Shown one piece after another: positions 12,441 to 63,799 of a stretch of 64,000 nucleotides of DNA. How positions within the stretch are numbered: position 1 is the stretch's first letter; the number at the start of each line of letters is the position of its first letter. The notes under the pieces were generated by a model. The model ran no database searches. It was not told the DNA's origin and worked only from the letters and a program-made list of their open reading frames with translations. A program made the translations under genes and the position numbers. This stretch comes from Gammaproteobacteria bacterium (GTDB lineage: Bacteria > Pseudomonadota > Gammaproteobacteria > Thiotrichales > Thiotrichaceae): positions 1 to 64,000 of the forward strand of contig JAHJJD010000054.1 in assembly GCA_018822845.1 (NCBI GenBank), in the 5' to 3' direction.

Positions 12441-12524
12441 GGATACCCGGCTTGCTAATCAGATCAACCGAGTGTAAGCCACACCACCATGAATACCAAC
12501 CTTCACAAGCTTGCCAAATGCTTA

Positions 12525-12565
12525 CTCCCTTCCCCCCTTGCGGGGGAAGGGCCGGGGATGGGGGT
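12525..12565. repeat. GC-rich palindromic repeat (REP-like)
   Basis: CCCTTCCCCCCTTGCGGGGGAAGGGCCGGGGATGGGGG; related copies elsewhere in the window. Confidence 0.8.
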
Positions 12566-27870: not shown

Positions 27871-27910
27871 CTCCCTTCACCCCTTGCGGGGGAAGGGTCG
27901 GGGATGGGGG
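27871..27910. repeat. GC-rich palindromic repeat (REP-like)
   Basis: CTCCCTTCACCCCTTGCGGGGGAAGGGTCGGGGATGGGGG; same family as 12525-12565. Confidence 0.8.
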
Positions 27911-27922
27911 GAACTCTTTCTC

Positions 27923-30564: not shown

Positions 30565-30669
30565 AACCCCTCACCCCAACCCCTCTCCCTCAAGGGGAGA
30601 GGGGCTGAAGAATCCCCTCTTTGCTCCCCCTCGCCCCTTGAGGGAGAGGGGGCTGGGGGGTGAGGGGTT
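30565..30669. repeat. Two-hairpin palindromic element (BIME-like)
   Basis: AACCCCTCACCCCAACCCCTCTCCCTCAAGGGGAGAGGGGCT ... CCCCTTGAGGGAGAGGGGGCTGGGGGGTGAGGGGTT. Confidence 0.85.
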
Positions 30670-34179: not shown

Positions 34180-34284
34180 ACCCCTCACCCCAACCCCTCT
34201 CCCTCAAGGGGAGAGGGGCTAAGAGGTATTTTCTCTTGCTCCCCCTCGCCCCTTGAGGGAGAGGGGGCTGGGGGGTGAGGGGTT
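34180..34284. repeat. Two-hairpin palindromic element, near-identical to 30565-30669
   Basis: ACCCCTCACCCCAACCCCTCTCCCTCAAGGGGAGAGGGGCTAAG...CCCCTTGAGGGAGAGGGGGCTGGGGGGTGAGGGGTT. Confidence 0.85.
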
Positions 34285-34293
34285 CACAGCATT

Positions 34294-35736
<1,443 letters not shown>

Positions 35737-35741
35737 CTACC

Positions 35742-37022
35742 TCACACATCCAGCACCAGGCGAACCGGATTTTCAACCAGTTCCTTGATGGTTTTAAGGA
35801 AGGTAACAGCACCTTGACCATCAACGATGCGGTGGTCATAAGACAGGGCCACGTACATCATTGGACGAATAACGATCTGATCATTAACAACGACAGGGCG
35901 CTTCTGGATCGAGTGCATCCCCAGGATCGCGCTTTGAGGAGGGTTTAGAATTGGGGTTGATAGCAACGACCCAAAAACGCCCCCGTTGGTTATGGTGAAC
36001 GTACCACCGGACAAATCGTTCATATCCAGCTTGCCTTCACGGGCTTTGGCAGCGTAACCGGCGATGCCGGATTCGATGTCAGCCAACCCCATGTTTTCAG
36101 CATTACGCAGGATCGGAACGACCAGTCCGCGATCAGATGACACGGCGATCCCGATATCGCAGAAGCCGTGGTAAACAACATCATTGCCGTCGATAGAGGC
36201 ATTGATTTCAGGGAAACGTTGCAGCGCTACAGCGGCTGCTTTCACGAACAGGGACATAAAGCCCAGTTTCGCCTTGTGCTTTTTCTCGAATGCGTCTTTG
36301 TATTCGTTACGCAGATCCATCAACGGCTTCATGTCGATTTCGTTGAAGGTGGTCAGCATCGCGGTGGATTGCTTGGCATACATCAGGCGTTCGGCGATAC
36401 GCGCACGCAGGCGGGTCATCGGTACGCGCTGTTCCATGCGGGCTGCGCCCGTACCCCCCTTCCCCGGCCCTTCCCCCGCAAGGGGGGAAGGGAGTGAAGA
36501 AGAAGATGGAGCGGGTGCGGGTTTTGGTTCAGCAGGAGCATCTTGCCCCTTCCCCCCTTGCGGGGGAAGGCCGGGATGGGGGGGAGCGGCGATAGCAGCC
36601 TGCACATCTTCTTTCAGGATGCGACCCTGTTTGCCGGAGCCTTGTACATCAGCAGCAGACAGATCACTTTCGGCCATCATCTTGCGCACAGCCGGAGCAG
36701 TTTGCGCTTCACCAGCAGGTGCTTCAGCCTGAGGAGCTGGAGCCGCTTCAACTGCCGGAGAGGGAGCAGGAGCTGCGGCGACGGCACCAGCCGTCATGCG
36801 CCCCAGCAATTGGCTGCTGGTAACGGTTGCACCAGCATCTTCCACAATCTCGGTCAGAACACCATCAAACGGAGCTGGCACTTCCAGCACCACCTTGTCG
36901 GTTTCGATTTCAACCAGGACTTCATCCTGCTTGACGGCATCACCCGGTTTTTTGCTCCATGCAACCACGGTAGCATCGGCGACAGACTCCGGCAGCACCG
37001 GCGTCAAAATCTCACTGCTCAT
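35742..37022 (-). CDS. sucB: 2-oxoglutarate dehydrogenase E2 (dihydrolipoyl succinyltransferase)
   Basis: Lipoyl [18 protein letters not shown]; catalytic [26 protein letters not shown]. Confidence 0.96.
36453..36584. repeat. Pair of inverted GC-rich palindromic repeats inside the sucB coding sequence
   Basis: CCCCCCTTCCCCGGCCCTTCCCCCGCAAGGGGGGAAGGGA and CCCCTTCCCCCCTTGCGGGGGAAGGCCGGGATGGGGGGG; translated [14 protein letters not shown]...[17 protein letters not shown]. Confidence 0.85.
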
Positions 37023-37186: not shown

Positions 37187-38314
37187 TCAACCCGCATCAG
37201 CGAGCCTTACCTGCTGATAGTCATCACCCTGCATTTCGTTCAAGCGGCTCAACGCGCGCTGGAATTCAAATTTCAGTTTCTGCCCCTGATACAAATTCTC
37301 CAGCGATATCGTGGTAGAAAATATGAACTGCACATTGCGGTCATACAGCTCATCGATCAGGTTGAGAAAACGCCGCGCCGCCGACTCGTGTTCCTCACTC
37401 AGGACATGCAATCCCGACAGGACAATATAATCAAACCGTTCGGCCAACTCGATGTAATCACGGGTGGAACGCGCCGTTTCACACAGGGTGCTGAAATCAA
37501 ACCAGACAATGTTTTCAGAAACCTTGTGGGCAGGCAGAATCCGCCCTTGCACTTCGATGTCCTGCCCGGTTTCGATAGCGCCCGTTGCCAGTTCAGCAAA
37601 GCACTTTTCCAGCTCATGCTCAACCAGAATAGCGTCATCATCTTCCAGGAAACTGTCATGGCTCACACGCTTGAGCATACGGTAATCGATGTTATTGTCC
37701 AATTCGACTACATGCGTGTGCTTTTTCAACATGGCAATGGCGGGCAGGAAACGTTCGCGCTGCAAACCGTTCAGGTAAAGATCATCCGGCACCCGATTGG
37801 AAGTGGTCACCAACGTAATGCCGTGCTTGCACATGGCTTCCAGCAAACCATGCAGCAACATGGCATCGACAATATCCATTACATGGAATTCGTCGACACA
37901 CATCAGCCGCACGTCCTTCGCCAGCTCTGCAACCAGTGCTTCCAGCGGATTACGCTTGTTGGCAAATCTTTTCAGCTCTTCGTGCACGAAGAACATGCAA
38001 TGGTGGTAGTGCATCCGCCGCTTTTCAGCCAGCGGAATGCGCGAATAGAACATGTCCATCAGCCAGGTCTTGCCGCGCCCGACGCCACCCCACAGGTAAG
38101 CGCCGCGCACTGGCTCAACCACGTTACGCCGGTTACCGGAAAACACCGACAGCAAACCGCGCGTTTGAGCTTTGGGACGCGGCTTGAGCAGTTCATTCCA
38201 GACATCCTGCAAAACCTTGATACCTTCCATTTGGGCGGGATCCTGCTGGATCGCGCCTTCCTTGACTGCATCGTGATAATGCTTCAACAGCGGCATAACG
38301 TTTACTTCCTTCAT
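37187..38314 (-). CDS. zapE: AFG1/ZapE-family cell division ATPase
   Basis: RGAYLWGGVGRGKTWLMDMFYSRIP...HHCMFFVHEELKRF; LVTTSNRVPDDLYLNGLQRERFLPAI. Confidence 0.94.
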   Translation of the reverse strand: MKEVNVMPLLKHYHDAVKEGAIQQDPAQMEGIKVLQDVWNELLKPRPKAQTRGLLSVFSGNRRNVVEPVRGAYLWGGVGRGKTWLMDMFYSRIPLAEKRRMHYHHCMFFVHEELKRFANKRNPLEALVAELAKDVRLMCVDEFHVMDIVDAMLLHGLLEAMCKHGITLVTTSNRVPDDLYLNGLQRERFLPAIAMLKKHTHVVELDNNIDYRMLKRVSHDSFLEDDDAILVEHELEKCFAELATGAIETGQDIEVQGRILPAHKVSENIVWFDFSTLCETARSTRDYIELAERFDYIVLSGLHVLSEEHESAARRFLNLIDELYDRNVQFIFSTTISLENLYQGQKLKFEFQRALSRLNEMQGDDYQQVRLADAG

Positions 38315-41163
38315 GACATGACGATTCCCAGTGCCTGATTGACCAACGCCTGCTGCTGGGCAGCGTGAACCTTGGAACTACCTACCGCAGGCGAGGCAGA
38401 AGCAGGACGGCTGGCCACATCCAGCCGCGCCATTCCTCCCAGCACATGACGCAGGGATGGCTGGATACTCAGCCACGCACCCTGGTTCAGCGGCTCTTCC
38501 TGACACCAGACATTGACATCAACATTCGGATAGCGGTCGAGAATCGCATCCATGTCTACTTCAGGGAACGGGTAGAGTTGCTCAATCCGGACAACAGCGA
38601 CGTGTTCGAGCTTTTCAGCACGACGCTTTTCCAGCAGGTCGTAATAAACCTTGCCGCTGCACATGACCAGACGTGTCACCTTGTGTGGATCAATAGCGTC
38701 GATTTCATCAATGACATTCTGGAAGCCGCGTTCAGTCAGGTCTTCCATTGTGTTGACCGCCATCGGGTGGCGCAACAGGCTTTTCGGTGTCATGACAATC
38801 AGCGGTGTACGGTAATCACGCACCATTTGGCGGCGTAACATGTGGAAAGCCTGCGCTGGCGTACTCGGTACACATACCTGCATATTGTTCTGGGCACACA
38901 GTTGCAAGTATCGTTCCAAACGCGCGGAAGAGTGCTCCGGCCCCTGCCCCTCGAAACCGTGCGGCAGCAACATGACCAGACCACACAAACGGCCCCATTT
39001 CTGCTCGCCGGAACTGATGAACTGGTCGATAACGACCTGCGCGCAGTTGGCGAAGTCACCGAATTGCGCTTCCCAGATAGTCAGGGTATTGGCTTCGGTA
39101 GTGGCGTAACCGTATTCAAACGCCAGCACGGCCTCTTCCGACAGCAGCGAGTCAATGACCACGAATGGCAGTTGCGCGGGTGACAGGTTTTGCAGGGGCA
39201 CGAAGGTTTCGCCCGTTTCCTGCTCATGGAATACTGCATGACGGTGGAAGAAGGTACCACGCCCGCAATCTTCGCCAGACAGACGAATCGGGAAGCCCTC
39301 CTCAATCAAGGTAGCGTAAGCCAGGTTTTCGCAGAAACCCCAGTCCATCGGCTGCTCACCTGCGGCCATTTTCTTGCGGTCGGCAACGATGCGGGCCACA
39401 CGGGAGTTGAGCTTGAAACCTTCCGGCACAAGCGTGAGCTTTTCACCCAGATGACGGATGGTTTCCTCATCAATGGTAGTGTCGACCGGCATGTCCCAGG
39501 TTCCCTTGACATAACGCTTCCAGTTGACCGGATGCGGATTTTGTACCTCATCCTTGTTCAGCAGGTGCGGAACTGTCGGCATGCCATCCGTCAACTGCTG
39601 ACGGCAACGCTGCACGCGCTCTTGTGCATCTTCCGCTGTCACTGTTCCTTCAGCTGCCAGTTTTTGCGCATAGCGCTCACGGGTAGTTGGCAGGGAACGA
39701 ATCTTGCGGTACATGACCGGCTGGGTAGCGGATGGCTCGTCAGCTTCGTTATGACCATGACGGCGGTAGCAAACCAGATCGATCACCACATCCTTTTTGA
39801 AGTGGTTACGGTAATCCATCGCCAACTGGGTGACCAGCACCACTGCTTCAGGGTCATCACCATTCACATGGAATACCGGTGAGTCGACCATTTTGGCCAC
39901 GTCGGTACAGTAATAGGTGGAACGTGCATCAATGGAAGCGCTGGTGGTAAAACCAACCTGGTTATTGATGACGATATGGATGGTGCCATGGGTGCGATAG
40001 CCACGGGTATCGGCCATTTGCAGCATTTCCATGTTGACACCCTGCCCCGCGAAAGCAGCATCACCATGCAACACGACCGGCACGATTTTCTCGTAACCGT
40101 TTTCAGCCCAGCGATCCTGACGGGCGCGTACTGCGCCTTCCACGACCGGGCCAACGATTTCGAGATGCGAAGGATTGAACGCCATCGCTACGTGCACCGG
40201 GCCACCTTCGGTTTTCAGGTCGGAAGCGTAACCCATGTGGTATTTCACGTCACCAGTACGGCCAGTGTCGGCATACTTGCCTTCAAACTCGCTGAACAGC
40301 ATGGCGGGCGATTTACCCAGCACATTGATCAGTACGTTCAGACGGCCACGGTGCGCCATGCCGATAACCATTTCCACTGCACCGTGCTTGCCAGCGTGCA
40401 GGATCATGGTGTGCAGCATGGGAATCAGGCTCTCGCCACCTTCCAGCGAGAAACGCTTCTGCCCGACGTAATTGGTGTGCAGGTAACGCTCCAGACCTTC
40501 AGCCGCAGTCAGGCGGTCGAGGATTTCGATTTTCTCTTCCTTGTTGAAGGAAGGCGTGGAACGGATGGTTTCCAGGCGTTGCTGAATCCAGCGTTTCTGC
40601 TCGGTACTGGTGGTATGCATGTATTGCGCACCAATCGAGCCGCAGTAGGTTGCTTCCAACTGGGCAATGATGTCGCGCAATTTCATCTGGTCTGCACCAA
40701 ACAGGGAGCCGGTATTGAAGGTGGTATCCAGATCCTGCTTGCCGAGGGAATGGTATTCGAGGGTCAATTCCTTGACGAAAGCAGGGGTGTTTTCATCCAG
40801 CGGATTGGTCTTGGCATGGAAGTGCCCCTGAAAGCGGTAAGCGTTGATCAGCTGCAACACTTTTACCTGCTTGCGCTCATGTTCCAGATCGACAGAGTTG
40901 CCCGCAGCGGCATAGGCCTGCGGCTTGGCTGCATAAGCACGGAAATAGTCTTTTACCAGTGAGTGGCGGGTATCGCCATCATGGCCGTTGACTTGCGGTA
41001 GACCGTCAAAGTATTGCTGCCAGCTTGCCGGTATGGAAGCCGGTTCCTGCAAGTAACGCTCGTACATCTCTTCCAGATACAGGACGCTGTTGCCGTCCAG
41101 TTGGGTATCCGCATTCCAGGCCACAGCCTGCCCTTCTCCTTTATTCATATATTGAACCTGCAT
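38311..41163 (-). CDS. sucA: 2-oxoglutarate dehydrogenase E1
   Basis: MAHRGRLNVLINVLGKSPAMLFSEFEGKY; HGDAAFAGQGVNMEMLQM; CYRRHGHNEADEPS. Confidence 0.97.
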   Translation of the reverse strand: MQVQYMNKGEGQAVAWNADTQLDGNSVLYLEEMYERYLQEPASIPASWQQYFDGLPQVNGHDGDTRHSLVKDYFRAYAAKPQAYAAAGNSVDLEHERKQVKVLQLINAYRFQGHFHAKTNPLDENTPAFVKELTLEYHSLGKQDLDTTFNTGSLFGADQMKLRDIIAQLEATYCGSIGAQYMHTTSTEQKRWIQQRLETIRSTPSFNKEEKIEILDRLTAAEGLERYLHTNYVGQKRFSLEGGESLIPMLHTMILHAGKHGAVEMVIGMAHRGRLNVLINVLGKSPAMLFSEFEGKYADTGRTGDVKYHMGYASDLKTEGGPVHVAMAFNPSHLEIVGPVVEGAVRARQDRWAENGYEKIVPVVLHGDAAFAGQGVNMEMLQMADTRGYRTHGTIHIVINNQVGFTTSASIDARSTYYCTDVAKMVDSPVFHVNGDDPEAVVLVTQLAMDYRNHFKKDVVIDLVCYRRHGHNEADEPSATQPVMYRKIRSLPTTRERYAQKLAAEGTVTAEDAQERVQRCRQQLTDGMPTVPHLLNKDEVQNPHPVNWKRYVKGTWDMPVDTTIDEETIRHLGEKLTLVPEGFKLNSRVARIVADRKKMAAGEQPMDWGFCENLAYATLIEEGFPIRLSGEDCGRGTFFHRHAVFHEQETGETFVPLQNLSPAQLPFVVIDSLLSEEAVLAFEYGYATTEANTLTIWEAQFGDFANCAQVVIDQFISSGEQKWGRLCGLVMLLPHGFEGQGPEHSSARLERYLQLCAQNNMQVCVPSTPAQAFHMLRRQMVRDYRTPLIVMTPKSLLRHPMAVNTMEDLTERGFQNVIDEIDAIDPHKVTRLVMCSGKVYYDLLEKRRAEKLEHVAVVRIEQLYPFPEVDMDAILDRYPNVDVNVWCQEEPLNQGAWLSIQPSLRHVLGGMARLDVASRPASASPAVGSSKVHAAQQQALVNQALGIVMS

Positions 41164-46709: not shown

Positions 46710-47582
46710 ATGAAACTTAAATCGTTAATCGTACTGTTACTGGCTGGCATCTGGGGTGTCGGTGGCTGGTGGTGGTATACCTGTAAAGTCAAAGGTTTCT
46801 GTGGTGCAGACGTAACAACTGCCCAGGTTGCCGCCGGAACTGCGGCAGTTGGCGCAGCCGCAATGTCTGCTAATGAGGATCCTGACAAAGCACCAGCAAT
46901 GGCAGAAGCTGCTACTGAACAGCCTGAAGCCGAAAAAGCCGCCGCCGAGAAAGCTGCCGCTGAACAGGCTGAAGCTGAAAAAGCCGCCGCCGAGAAAGCC
47001 GCCGCTGAACAAGTTGAAGCTGAAAAGGCCGCCGCCGAGAAAGCCGCCGCTGAACAAGTTGAAGCTGAAAAGGCCGCCGCCGAGAAAGCCGCCACTGAAC
47101 AAGCTGAAGCTGAAAAGGCCGCTGCCGAGAAAGCCGCTGCCGAAAAAGCTGAGGCTGAAAAGGCCGCTACCGAACAAGAACAGGCAGATGCTGACAAGGT
47201 AACCATGGAAACCAGCGCTAGCGCTGCTGGTAACGGCTCAGGCATCGACCCTGCCACCCTGCACTTCCCGACCGGCTCCGCCAACACGCAACTGGCAGAT
47301 GACACCAAAGCCTATTTCGAGAAAGTCACAAACTTCCTCAAGGAAAACCAATCGGCCAAAGTCACCATCACCGGCCACACGGACGACCAGGGTGATGCTG
47401 GCAAAAACAAGGCTCTTGGCCTGAAACGCGCTGAACTGATCAAGCAGATGCTGTCTGACATGGGTGCACCAACAGACCGGATTACCGCTTCATCCGAAGG
47501 AGAAGACAAGCCGGTGGCGGACAACAAGACCCCTGAAGGCCGCAAGAAAAACCGCCGCGTCGAAGTAACCCCCGAGCAATAA
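46710..47582 (+). CDS. OmpA-family protein with Ala/Glu/Lys-rich repeat linker
   Basis: N-terminal TM; C-terminal KVTITGHTDDQGDAGKNKALGLKRAELIKQML...NRRVEVTPEQ. Confidence 0.88.
   Translation: MKLKSLIVLLLAGIWGVGGWWWYTCKVKGFCGADVTTAQVAAGTAAVGAAAMSANEDPDKAPAMAEAATEQPEAEKAAAEKAAAEQAEAEKAAAEKAAAEQVEAEKAAAEKAAAEQVEAEKAAAEKAATEQAEAEKAAAEKAAAEKAEAEKAATEQEQADADKVTMETSASAAGNGSGIDPATLHFPTGSANTQLADDTKAYFEKVTNFLKENQSAKVTITGHTDDQGDAGKNKALGLKRAELIKQMLSDMGAPTDRITASSEGEDKPVADNKTPEGRKKNRRVEVTPEQ
46923..47179 (+). repeat. 45-bp (15-aa) tandem repeat in the OmpA-family gene linker
   Basis: Repeated EAEKAAAEKAAAEQ(A/V) units, near-identical at nucleotide level (GAAGCTGAAAAGGCCGCCGCCGAGAAAGCC). Confidence 0.9.
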
Positions 47583-53875: not shown

Positions 53876-53913
53876 TCCCTTCCCCCCACGCGGGGGAAGG
53901 TTAGGATGGGGGC
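53876..53913. repeat. GC-rich palindromic repeat (REP-like)
   Basis: TCCCTTCCCCCCACGCGGGGGAAGGTTAGGATGGGGGC. Confidence 0.75.
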
Positions 53914-53918
53914 CTTTA

Positions 53919-61966: not shown

Positions 61967-63799
61967 ATGGAAATCATAATGCGCGAATACGGAAGCATCA
62001 TCCGCCAGAAATGGGGCTGGTTCCTGCTGGTCATGCTCGGCATTTCGGGTGGTGCGGGGCTGGAAGTGCTGGTTCCACTGTTTTACAAGGATATTGCCAA
62101 CAACCTGGTCAAACCTTTCAGCGATGCAACCTACCAGTTGCTGCTGGAAAGCCTGTTCGCCATCGCCCTCACCTACGGCGCGATCTGGCTGAGCTGGCGG
62201 GTGCTGGAACTGGGCATGATCATGTTCCAGAGCTGGGGGCTGAACAGGCTCGACAAGCGCTGTTTCGACGTGCTGACCCAACAGCGCCAGCACTTTTTCG
62301 AGAATAATTTCGCAGGCAGTCTGGTCAAGCAGGCATACCGCTTCATCAAGGCGTTTGAAACCGTCATCGACTGGCTGATTTTCCAGTTTTACGGCAACCT
62401 GCTGCAAATCACGCTGGCTTTCTTCATCTTCTTCCAGCAGCAACCGCGCTTCGCCCTGTACTTCCTGGTCTGGGTGGTGATTTTCCTCGGCTGGAGCGGC
62501 GGCTATCTGGTGTGGAAACTGAAATACGACAAGCGCGTGGCAGCGATGGACTCCAAACTCGGCGGCGCGTATGCCGATGGCGTCAGCAATATTGCCATCA
62601 TCAAAAGCTTCGCGCTGGAAACGCAGGAAAACGCCAATATCGGCGGCATTGCTGACGAATCCTACCAGAAGCGCAATGTGGCCTGGCTGCTGACCTTCGT
62701 CTCGTTTGCAGTGCAAAGCACGCTGGTGTTCGGCATCGAACTGCTGCTGATCTACTGGATGATCGGCGAATGGAAACAGGGTGCATTTGAAATCGGCGAA
62801 TTCGTGCTGTTCCAGACCGTGCTGCTGATCCTGATCAAGCACCTGTGGGAATTCGGCATGAATTTCCGGCGCTTTTTCAACGTGCTGGCGGATGCGCAGG
62901 AAATGGCCGATGTATTCCGCCAGACCGATCTGGATCGGGATCGGGAGGGGATGCAGGCGCATATCATCCGGCAGGGGGACATCCGTTTCGAGCAAGTGAG
63001 GTTTGCTTATGGCGGAGGAAAGAACCCCATCCCCAGCCCTTCCCTTGTCAGGGAAGGGAGCGAGGAGACTCCTCCCCTGACAAGGGGAGGCCGGGAGGGG
63101 TTTCTTCCAGGCTTGTTTGAGGGTTTCAACCTGCACATCAAGCCGGGGGAAAAGGTGGCACTGGTAGGGCATTCCGGTTCCGGCAAGACTTCGCTGACCA
63201 AGCTGCTGTTCCGTTTTGTCGACCCGCAGTCAGGCAGAATCCTGTTCGATGGGGTGGATGCGCAGGATTTCAGCCTGCGTTCGCTGCGCCAGCAGATCTC
63301 GCTGGTGCCGCAACAGCCGGAACTGTTCCACCGCAGCATCCGCGACAATATCGCGCTGGGCAAGGCTGTCAGCGAGGAACAATTGCGTGAGGTCGCCCGC
63401 AAGGCACGCGCGCTGGATTTCATCGACAAGCTGCCCAAAGGTTTCGACACGCTGGTGGGGGAACGTGGTGTGAAACTTTCCGGCGGGGAAAAGCAGCGGG
63501 TGGCACTGGCAAGAGCCTTCCTCGAAGACGCACCCATCGTAGTGCTGGACGAAGCCACCAGCGCACTGGATTCCCTCACCGAACAGCAGATTCAGGTGGC
63601 CATTTTCGAGCTGATCGAAAGCAAGACTGCGATGGTGATTGCACACCGGCTTTCCACCATCCTGCGCATGGATCGCATCATCGTGCTGGAAAACGGCCAG
63701 ATCATTGAGCAGGGTACGCACGCGGAACTGCTGGCGCTGCAAGGCCGTTATTACGACATGTGGCAGCACCAGAGTGGTGAATTCCTCAATAGCGACTAG
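61967..63799 (+). CDS. ABC transporter (fused TM-NBD exporter)
   Basis: Walker A GHSGSGKTSL; signature LSGGEKQRVALARAF; Walker B IVVLDEATSALD. Confidence 0.93.
   Translation: MEIIMREYGSIIRQKWGWFLLVMLGISGGAGLEVLVPLFYKDIANNLVKPFSDATYQLLLESLFAIALTYGAIWLSWRVLELGMIMFQSWGLNRLDKRCFDVLTQQRQHFFENNFAGSLVKQAYRFIKAFETVIDWLIFQFYGNLLQITLAFFIFFQQQPRFALYFLVWVVIFLGWSGGYLVWKLKYDKRVAAMDSKLGGAYADGVSNIAIIKSFALETQENANIGGIADESYQKRNVAWLLTFVSFAVQSTLVFGIELLLIYWMIGEWKQGAFEIGEFVLFQTVLLILIKHLWEFGMNFRRFFNVLADAQEMADVFRQTDLDRDREGMQAHIIRQGDIRFEQVRFAYGGGKNPIPSPSLVREGSEETPPLTRGGREGFLPGLFEGFNLHIKPGEKVALVGHSGSGKTSLTKLLFRFVDPQSGRILFDGVDAQDFSLRSLRQQISLVPQQPELFHRSIRDNIALGKAVSEEQLREVARKARALDFIDKLPKGFDTLVGERGVKLSGGEKQRVALARAFLEDAPIVVLDEATSALDSLTEQQIQVAIFELIESKTAMVIAHRLSTILRMDRIIVLENGQIIEQGTHAELLALQGRYYDMWQHQSGEFLNSD
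63024..63100. repeat. Two-hairpin palindromic element inside the ABC transporter coding sequence
   Basis: CCCTTCCCTTGTCAGGGAAGGG and CCTCCCCTGACAAGGGGAGG; encodes NPIPSPSLVREGSEETPPLTRGGREG. Confidence 0.85.

Follow-up and report, generated by a model that had tools for sequence, protein, structure and literature searches.

Introduction

Rickettsia palindromic elements (RPEs; Ogata et al. 2000, 2002) are palindromes that occur in many copies and have inserted, in frame, into many protein genes unrelated to one another, and a CGTC tag is reported for RPE-4 and RPE-6, according to the accounts of them in PMC10969869 and PMC3733652. Intragenic REPs of the GTAG/CGTC class were described in 2013 as single REPs and inverted dimers within open reading frames, where they encode 20–30 amino acids; their targets include DNA repair genes, recBCD among them, and two Xanthomonas species carry different REPs near one recB site (PMC3733652). 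Prior art is substantial, with intragenic REP dimers known since 2013 (PMC3733652) and RPEs since 2000–2002 (reviewed in PMC10969869). Two further systems share features with the elements reported here. REPINs of the REPIN-RAYT system (PMC3116915) are twin palindromes in inverted orientation with a spacer, and the QMITEs of Coxiella (PMC5896051) are short inverted-repeat elements that add coding sequence in a gammaproteobacterium. A text search of the literature with Thiothrix and repeat terms returned nothing on such elements. Here we compare with these systems a pair of palindromic repeats in sucB of a Thiothrix genome (G000; 4.0 Mb, 130 contigs). The window is the whole 64-kb stretch of DNA analysed.

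Results

Two palindromic arms in the SucB linker

The gene and its repeats are arranged as follows.

35742–37022, minus strand: sucB (odhB), dihydrolipoyl succinyltransferase E2 of 2-oxoglutarate dehydrogenase, 426 amino acids, intact
36454–36494, minus strand: family-1 palindromic arm of B type in sucB, with a perfect 9+9 stem
36495–36546, minus strand: inter-arm spacer in sucB, 52 nt, 16 amino acids
36547–36584, minus strand: family-1 palindromic arm of A type in sucB, 84% complementary to the arm at 36454–36494 over 38 nt

The neighbours of sucB are lpd (34294–35730) and a sucA-like E1 gene (38311–41163). All the SucB domains were found by Pfam: lipoyl (residues 4–75), E3_binding (109–141) and 2-oxoacid_dh catalytic (197–423). 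The initial annotation had placed two inverted copies of a GC-rich palindrome between the peripheral-subunit-binding and catalytic domains with the frame intact. This description holds: the arms at 36454–36494 and 36547–36584 lie in that interval, each is read in frame as a peptide of 14–15 amino acids, and the 426-codon reading frame is open across both. Frame conservation suggests that the peptide is translated in SucB. When SucB was modelled with AlphaFold using 33 aligned SucBs, residues 149–192 had pLDDT values below 50, and the linker holding the arms is predicted to be disordered. The predicted RNA fold of the whole insert has an energy of −95.8 kcal/mol (z −6.9).

A multi-copy family in the genome

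A degenerate 24-nt palindrome pattern, allowing up to three mismatches, gave 91 matches per strand in the genome and 1 match when the pattern was reversed. A BLAST search with the 137-nt sucB insert gave 102 matches at E≤0.001. The sucB palindromes are therefore not due to chance. The copies fetched comprise at least 71 arms in at least 49 elements (22 of the 49 clear inverted doublets and 27 single arms); as the census was drawn from pattern and BLAST searches that score at most 40 candidate regions per genome and misses divergent copies, these counts are lower bounds.

Each hairpin arm, the unit of the family, measures about 45 nt (CCCCCCATCCNNNCCYTTCCCCCGCAAGGGGGGAAGG...AAGA) and is often paired with an inverted partner across a spacer of 20–50 nt. 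Type A arms read CCCCCCATCC(TAA/CGG)CCTTCCCCCGCAAGGGGGGAAGG(A/G)(A/G)CAAGA, and the slightly longer type B arms read CCCCCCATCCCC(A/G)(A/G)CCCTTCCCCCGCAAGGGG(G/T)G(A/C)AGGGAGC. Doublets are about 100–145 bp long with inverted ends. At least eight of the nine stem pairs are kept in 69 of the 71 arms. The two copies in sucB correspond to the arms of an inverted doublet, the arrangement usual for the family.

E2 linkers are rich in Ala and Pro and evolve fast, and the spacer between the sucB arms looks native; the segment could on these grounds be a native low-complexity Pro/Gly/Ala linker that resembles the repeat by coincidence. However, the arm at 36454–36494 shows 98% complementarity to the intergenic copy at 12524–12564 across 41 nt, its relatives are those counted above throughout the genome, and sister species do not have the segment. 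Identity to intergenic copies at the DNA level already refutes a coincidence, which we regard as hardly credible. Instead, the sequence comparisons indicate that the segment is very probably an insertion of a mobile palindromic repeat (REP/MITE-like), spread through Thiothrix genomes, into the inter-domain linker of SucB.

Of 16 Thiothrix genomes, 15 contain family-1 elements; outside the genus, they occur in 11 of 273 gammaproteobacterial genomes sampled. Rfam covariance models at the gathering threshold gave no match in the 64-kb window. Neither the phage nor the plasmid collection matched the elements, and carriage by phage or plasmid was therefore rejected.

The twin inverted hairpins around a spacer resemble REPINs. 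In a RAYT-driven REPIN family, an IS200/IS605-like transposase (RAYT) would act on twin REPs. The distribution of this transposase argues against such a family. No match to PF01797 (Y1 transposase/RAYT) was found in G000, and the Y1_Tnp profile, by which a parental element was sought, revealed none in that genome. Across Thiothrix genomes, the presence of Y1_Tnp does not follow that of the elements: G008 has 10 Y1_Tnp matches and no elements, whereas G003, G010 and G013 have many elements and no Y1_Tnp. Nor do the arms carry the REP tag, as GTAG occurs in 1 of 71 and CTAC in 1 of 71. A RAYT-driven REPIN family is thus very unlikely, and RAYT was rejected as the mobiliser because Y1_Tnp is absent from G000 and discordant with the elements genus-wide.

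Other copies within the window

Four further copies lie in the window.

12524–12564, plus strand: single arm of the same family as the sucB arms (family 1), intergenic
27871–27914, plus strand: single family-1 arm, intergenic
53876–53914, plus strand: single family-1 arm with the variant loop CACG, intergenic, between two convergent ORFs
about 63026–63105, plus strand: in-frame palindromic doublet of the related family-2 type, within the ABC exporter ORF 61967–63799; reads NPIPSPSLVREGSEETPPLTRGGREGFLP

The first three had been reported as intergenic copies at 12525, 27871 and 53876, in agreement with the ORF map. The doublet at 63026–63105 was absent from the initial annotation. Its ORF contains Pfam ABC_tran and ABC_membrane domains, the doublet lying just ahead of the core of the nucleotide-binding domain; the family-2 match at 63069–63105 in contig C35 of G000 is part of this doublet.

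Other repeats were also seen in the window. A third palindrome family (CCCCTCACCCCAACCCCTCTCCCTCAAGGGGAGAGGGGCT...) forms near-identical intergenic doublets at 30566–30669 and 34180–34284, about 3.6 kb apart, and an arm related to it is present in smc of G014. A CRISPR-like array at 45–517 has at least seven 36-nt repeats (GTCTTAATCCCTTTTAAATCAGGGCAGTGTTCAGAA) spaced by 68–71 nt, and tandem repeats with a 15-nt period occupy 46861–47220, in or near an ORF.

Elements inside genes

A genome-wide search for the repeat in other ORFs had been suggested. It placed 25 of the 49 counted elements within recognisable genes or at their ends; the remainder are intergenic or undecided. Twenty insertions, including that in sucB, are internal, and at all of these Pfam finds the host domains intact. 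We assigned names such as recB, recD and CydC-like from the domains together with our reading of the sequence.

Internal, metabolic and redox hosts (Pfam): sucB, aceF, lpdA, glnE, a hydrogenase-related protein, hydroxyacyl-CoA dehydrogenase, a HyuA-HyuB fusion
Internal, DNA-maintenance hosts (Pfam): recB, recC, recD, smc, priA
Internal, other hosts (Pfam): three nSTAND sites in two genes, a CydC-like ABC exporter, an ABC ATPase
Internal, other hosts (Pfam): a CHAT/TPR protein, an FGE-domain protein, an HI0933-like protein
C-terminal extensions (three): an HlyD-type adaptor, NifZ, Fmt
N-terminal elements (two), true start uncertain: RarA, a ThiF-family protein

The insertion in SucB exemplifies a phenomenon seen across the genus, which had only been suspected at the outset.

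All three recBCD genes of G000 contain family-1 elements (L199 in contig C119, L003 in C9 and L194 in C86), and recB and recC also contain sequences resembling further palindrome families (TPLSDRADPFTERRSLSGVEGSRSEH; SPLAPLFQRGEQ...SPPFEKGGAGGI). An nSTAND-WD40 protein gene, L202 (G000:C39, 16850–19900), carries two family-1 doublets about 1.15 kb apart. This pair of doublets is common to G003, G012 and G014, with a frame change ahead of the first doublet in G012.

Reading-frame bias

The B arm is free of stop codons in all three frames in both directions. Reverse arms in genes were read in the PLAGEG frame in 19 of 19 cases; for those that are strictly internal the count was 16 of 16, with a probability of about 7e-8 if the three frames are equally likely. 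Among forward arms in genes, 12 are read as PPQGGK, 6 as PARGEG and none as the Arg/Lys-rich PRKGGR. The bias suggests selection against Cys-, Trp- or Arg-rich peptides, although a preference of insertion for a particular codon phase could also have produced it. Part of the orientation bias arises because type A arms with TAA bring a stop codon in one frame of each strand. The spacing of arms in genic doublets is largely the common spacing, and intergenic doublets follow no clear rule modulo 3; doublet spacing alone is therefore not evidence for coding.

Comparison with other Thiothrix species

The alignment of SucB from relatives that had been proposed as a check was carried out with 15 other Thiothrix species. 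In 14 of these the linker is an ordinary Ala/Pro linker without any palindrome. The exception, G009, has a doublet of the second palindrome family at the same spot in the linker (GAAACCCCTCC...CCTCCCCTTGTCAGGGGAGG, read as ETPPSLPLSGEEQ...SSSPDKGRSGGVS). Family 2 is multi-copy in both G009 and G000, and is often in frame. The segment is thus an addition to an Ala/Pro linker that varies among the 16 Thiothrix SucBs; together with the low pLDDT values, this bears out the earlier proposal that repeats colonised a flexible linker.

The orthologues of other insertion sites were compared in five relatives, whose linkers are strongly diverged from those of G000 at the insertion sites. Element-free orthologous sites were found for glnE, recB, recC, recD, smc and the HI0933-like gene. 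Occupied sites are common to relatives in lpdA, hydroxyacyl-CoA dehydrogenase, the nSTAND-WD40 pair, smc and the hydrogenase-related gene. At one and the same site in lpdA, aceF, the hydrogenase-related gene and smc, different palindrome families are present depending on the species.

The two arms in smc lie on either side of native hinge sequence (FPKAGVTLLATES; arm-free relatives have FPTSGITLLENT and FPQAGVTLLETT). Arms can therefore flank host sequence, and the sucB spacer may likewise be host sequence between arms. This bears on whether the sucB doublet arrived as a unit or whether two single arms inserted independently around a segment of native linker. Independent insertion is consistent with the smc arrangement, with the abundance of single arms in the census, and with the sucB spacer, which at 52 nt is longer than the 20–25 nt of canonical doublets and differs from their spacers. 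On the other hand, many doublets have a similar short spacer (20–25 nt), combine an A arm with an inverted B arm, and look like a unit. The 52-nt spacer is probably native linker, judged by its sequence, but the low complexity of the sucB linker blocks a decisive alignment and places native origin beyond proof. We give independent insertion of the two arms a little less than an even chance.

Conservation of arms at synonymous sites

At six insertion sites shared between G000 and relatives, fourfold-degenerate positions differed by 4.9% in arms, 23.5% in spacers and 29.1% in flanking codons. When only Pro and Gly codons were counted, the values were 4.2% in arms and 25.2% in flanks. With so few sites and species, which moreover are not independent, Fisher p values are only indicative, and the roughly sixfold difference is the main point. 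Judged by their spacers the shared insertions are old, whereas their arms look young. Arms more conserved than their flanks at fourfold sites are not what one would expect of an insertion that simply decays under neutrality, and the difference of 5% against 29% therefore implies that, in addition to coding, a process at the DNA level shapes the arms. It could be explained equally by gene conversion among copies and by selection for the hairpin, which the data do not separate.

The insertions might also be kept for a function: as RNA hairpins they could influence the stability or polarity of mRNA from the sucA-sucB-lpd operon, or as DNA hairpins they could serve recombination or architecture proteins. 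The conservation of arms at fourfold sites, the near-complete retention of stem pairing and the very stable predicted fold of the sucB insert are all compatible with this. However, 14 of 15 sister species have no insert in sucB, and the same pattern would arise from gene conversion within the set of about 70 arms that a genome carries. Retention for function is therefore somewhat unlikely. A further reading, to which we give somewhat less than an even chance, is that arms in coding sequences are maintained at the DNA level, by gene conversion or hairpin selection. The linkers of unrelated proteins would then evolve in concert and exchange one family for another at fixed hot spots, whatever the selection on the proteins themselves.

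Discussion

The Thiothrix elements combine features of several known classes. Like REPs, they are short palindromic units at high copy number, but they are not predominantly extragenic, with 25 of 49 in or at the ends of genes. The 22 inverted doublets have the REPIN form of two REPs inverted around a spacer, and the 20 internal insertions correspond to the in-frame insertion in many unrelated genes that characterises RPEs and CGTC repeats. As in MITEs, the ends are inverted repeats, the length falls within roughly 70–400 bp and the element has no transposase of its own. The likeness to RPEs drawn in the initial annotation stands as to mode, in that in-frame palindromes occur in many unrelated genes, in restricted frames and with intact domains. 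It does not extend to membership, as the CGTC tag of RPE-4 and RPE-6 is lacking (CGTC in 1 of 71 arms, GACG in 5 of 71). Thus the elements work like RPEs or intragenic REPs, but with no Y1 transposase found in G000, tags that are rare and no match in the Rfam, phage and plasmid searches, we do not assign them to either class.

As far as RPEs are described in PMC10969869 and PMC3733652, they too form several families per genome, with about half of the copies inside ORFs. They differ in that the Thiothrix arms are GC-rich, 45 nt long, form doublets of roughly 100–145 bp and have no CGTC tag, and in that the host is a gammaproteobacterium rather than an obligate intracellular alphaproteobacterium. 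With intragenic REPs, the Thiothrix elements share single and inverted dimeric forms in ORFs, recBCD hosts and family differences at one site; unlike them, they have arms without GTAG/CGTC, two multi-copy families, either of which may occupy a given linker depending on the species, and no RAYT in G000. Compared with REPIN-RAYT systems (PMC3116915), G000 has no RAYT, and about half of the elements are genic whereas REPINs are mostly extragenic. QMITEs that have inserted into functional annotated genes lie at the 3′ end (PMC5896051), whereas 20 of the 25 genic elements in Thiothrix are internal. Four features appear to be new: families that lack a tag, the exchange of one family for another at fixed linkers, the filtering of reading frames, and arm sequences conserved at synonymous sites.

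These observations suggest a pathway in which elements would insert widely across the genome, and those surviving in genes would be the ones that keep the frame and encode a small peptide rich in Pro, Gly, Ala and Glu. Survivors would fall in tolerant linkers, hinges, loops or termini, where the peptide would be translated and functionally neutral. The arm sequence would later be held near-identical by gene conversion among copies or by hairpin selection.

Rickettsia provides the best-known examples of in-frame palindromic elements; in Thiothrix, two or more untagged families behave in the same way in core genes. As Thiothrix species supply empty sites, occupied sites and sites occupied by another family, questions of the kind raised by RPEs can be put to a direct test. 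They concern the frames and positions at which an element is tolerated, the translation of the peptides, and whether homogenisation at the DNA level prevails over the rate at which the host gene itself changes. Much as palindromic elements do in Rickettsia, repeats in Thiothrix are rewriting the linkers of proteins.
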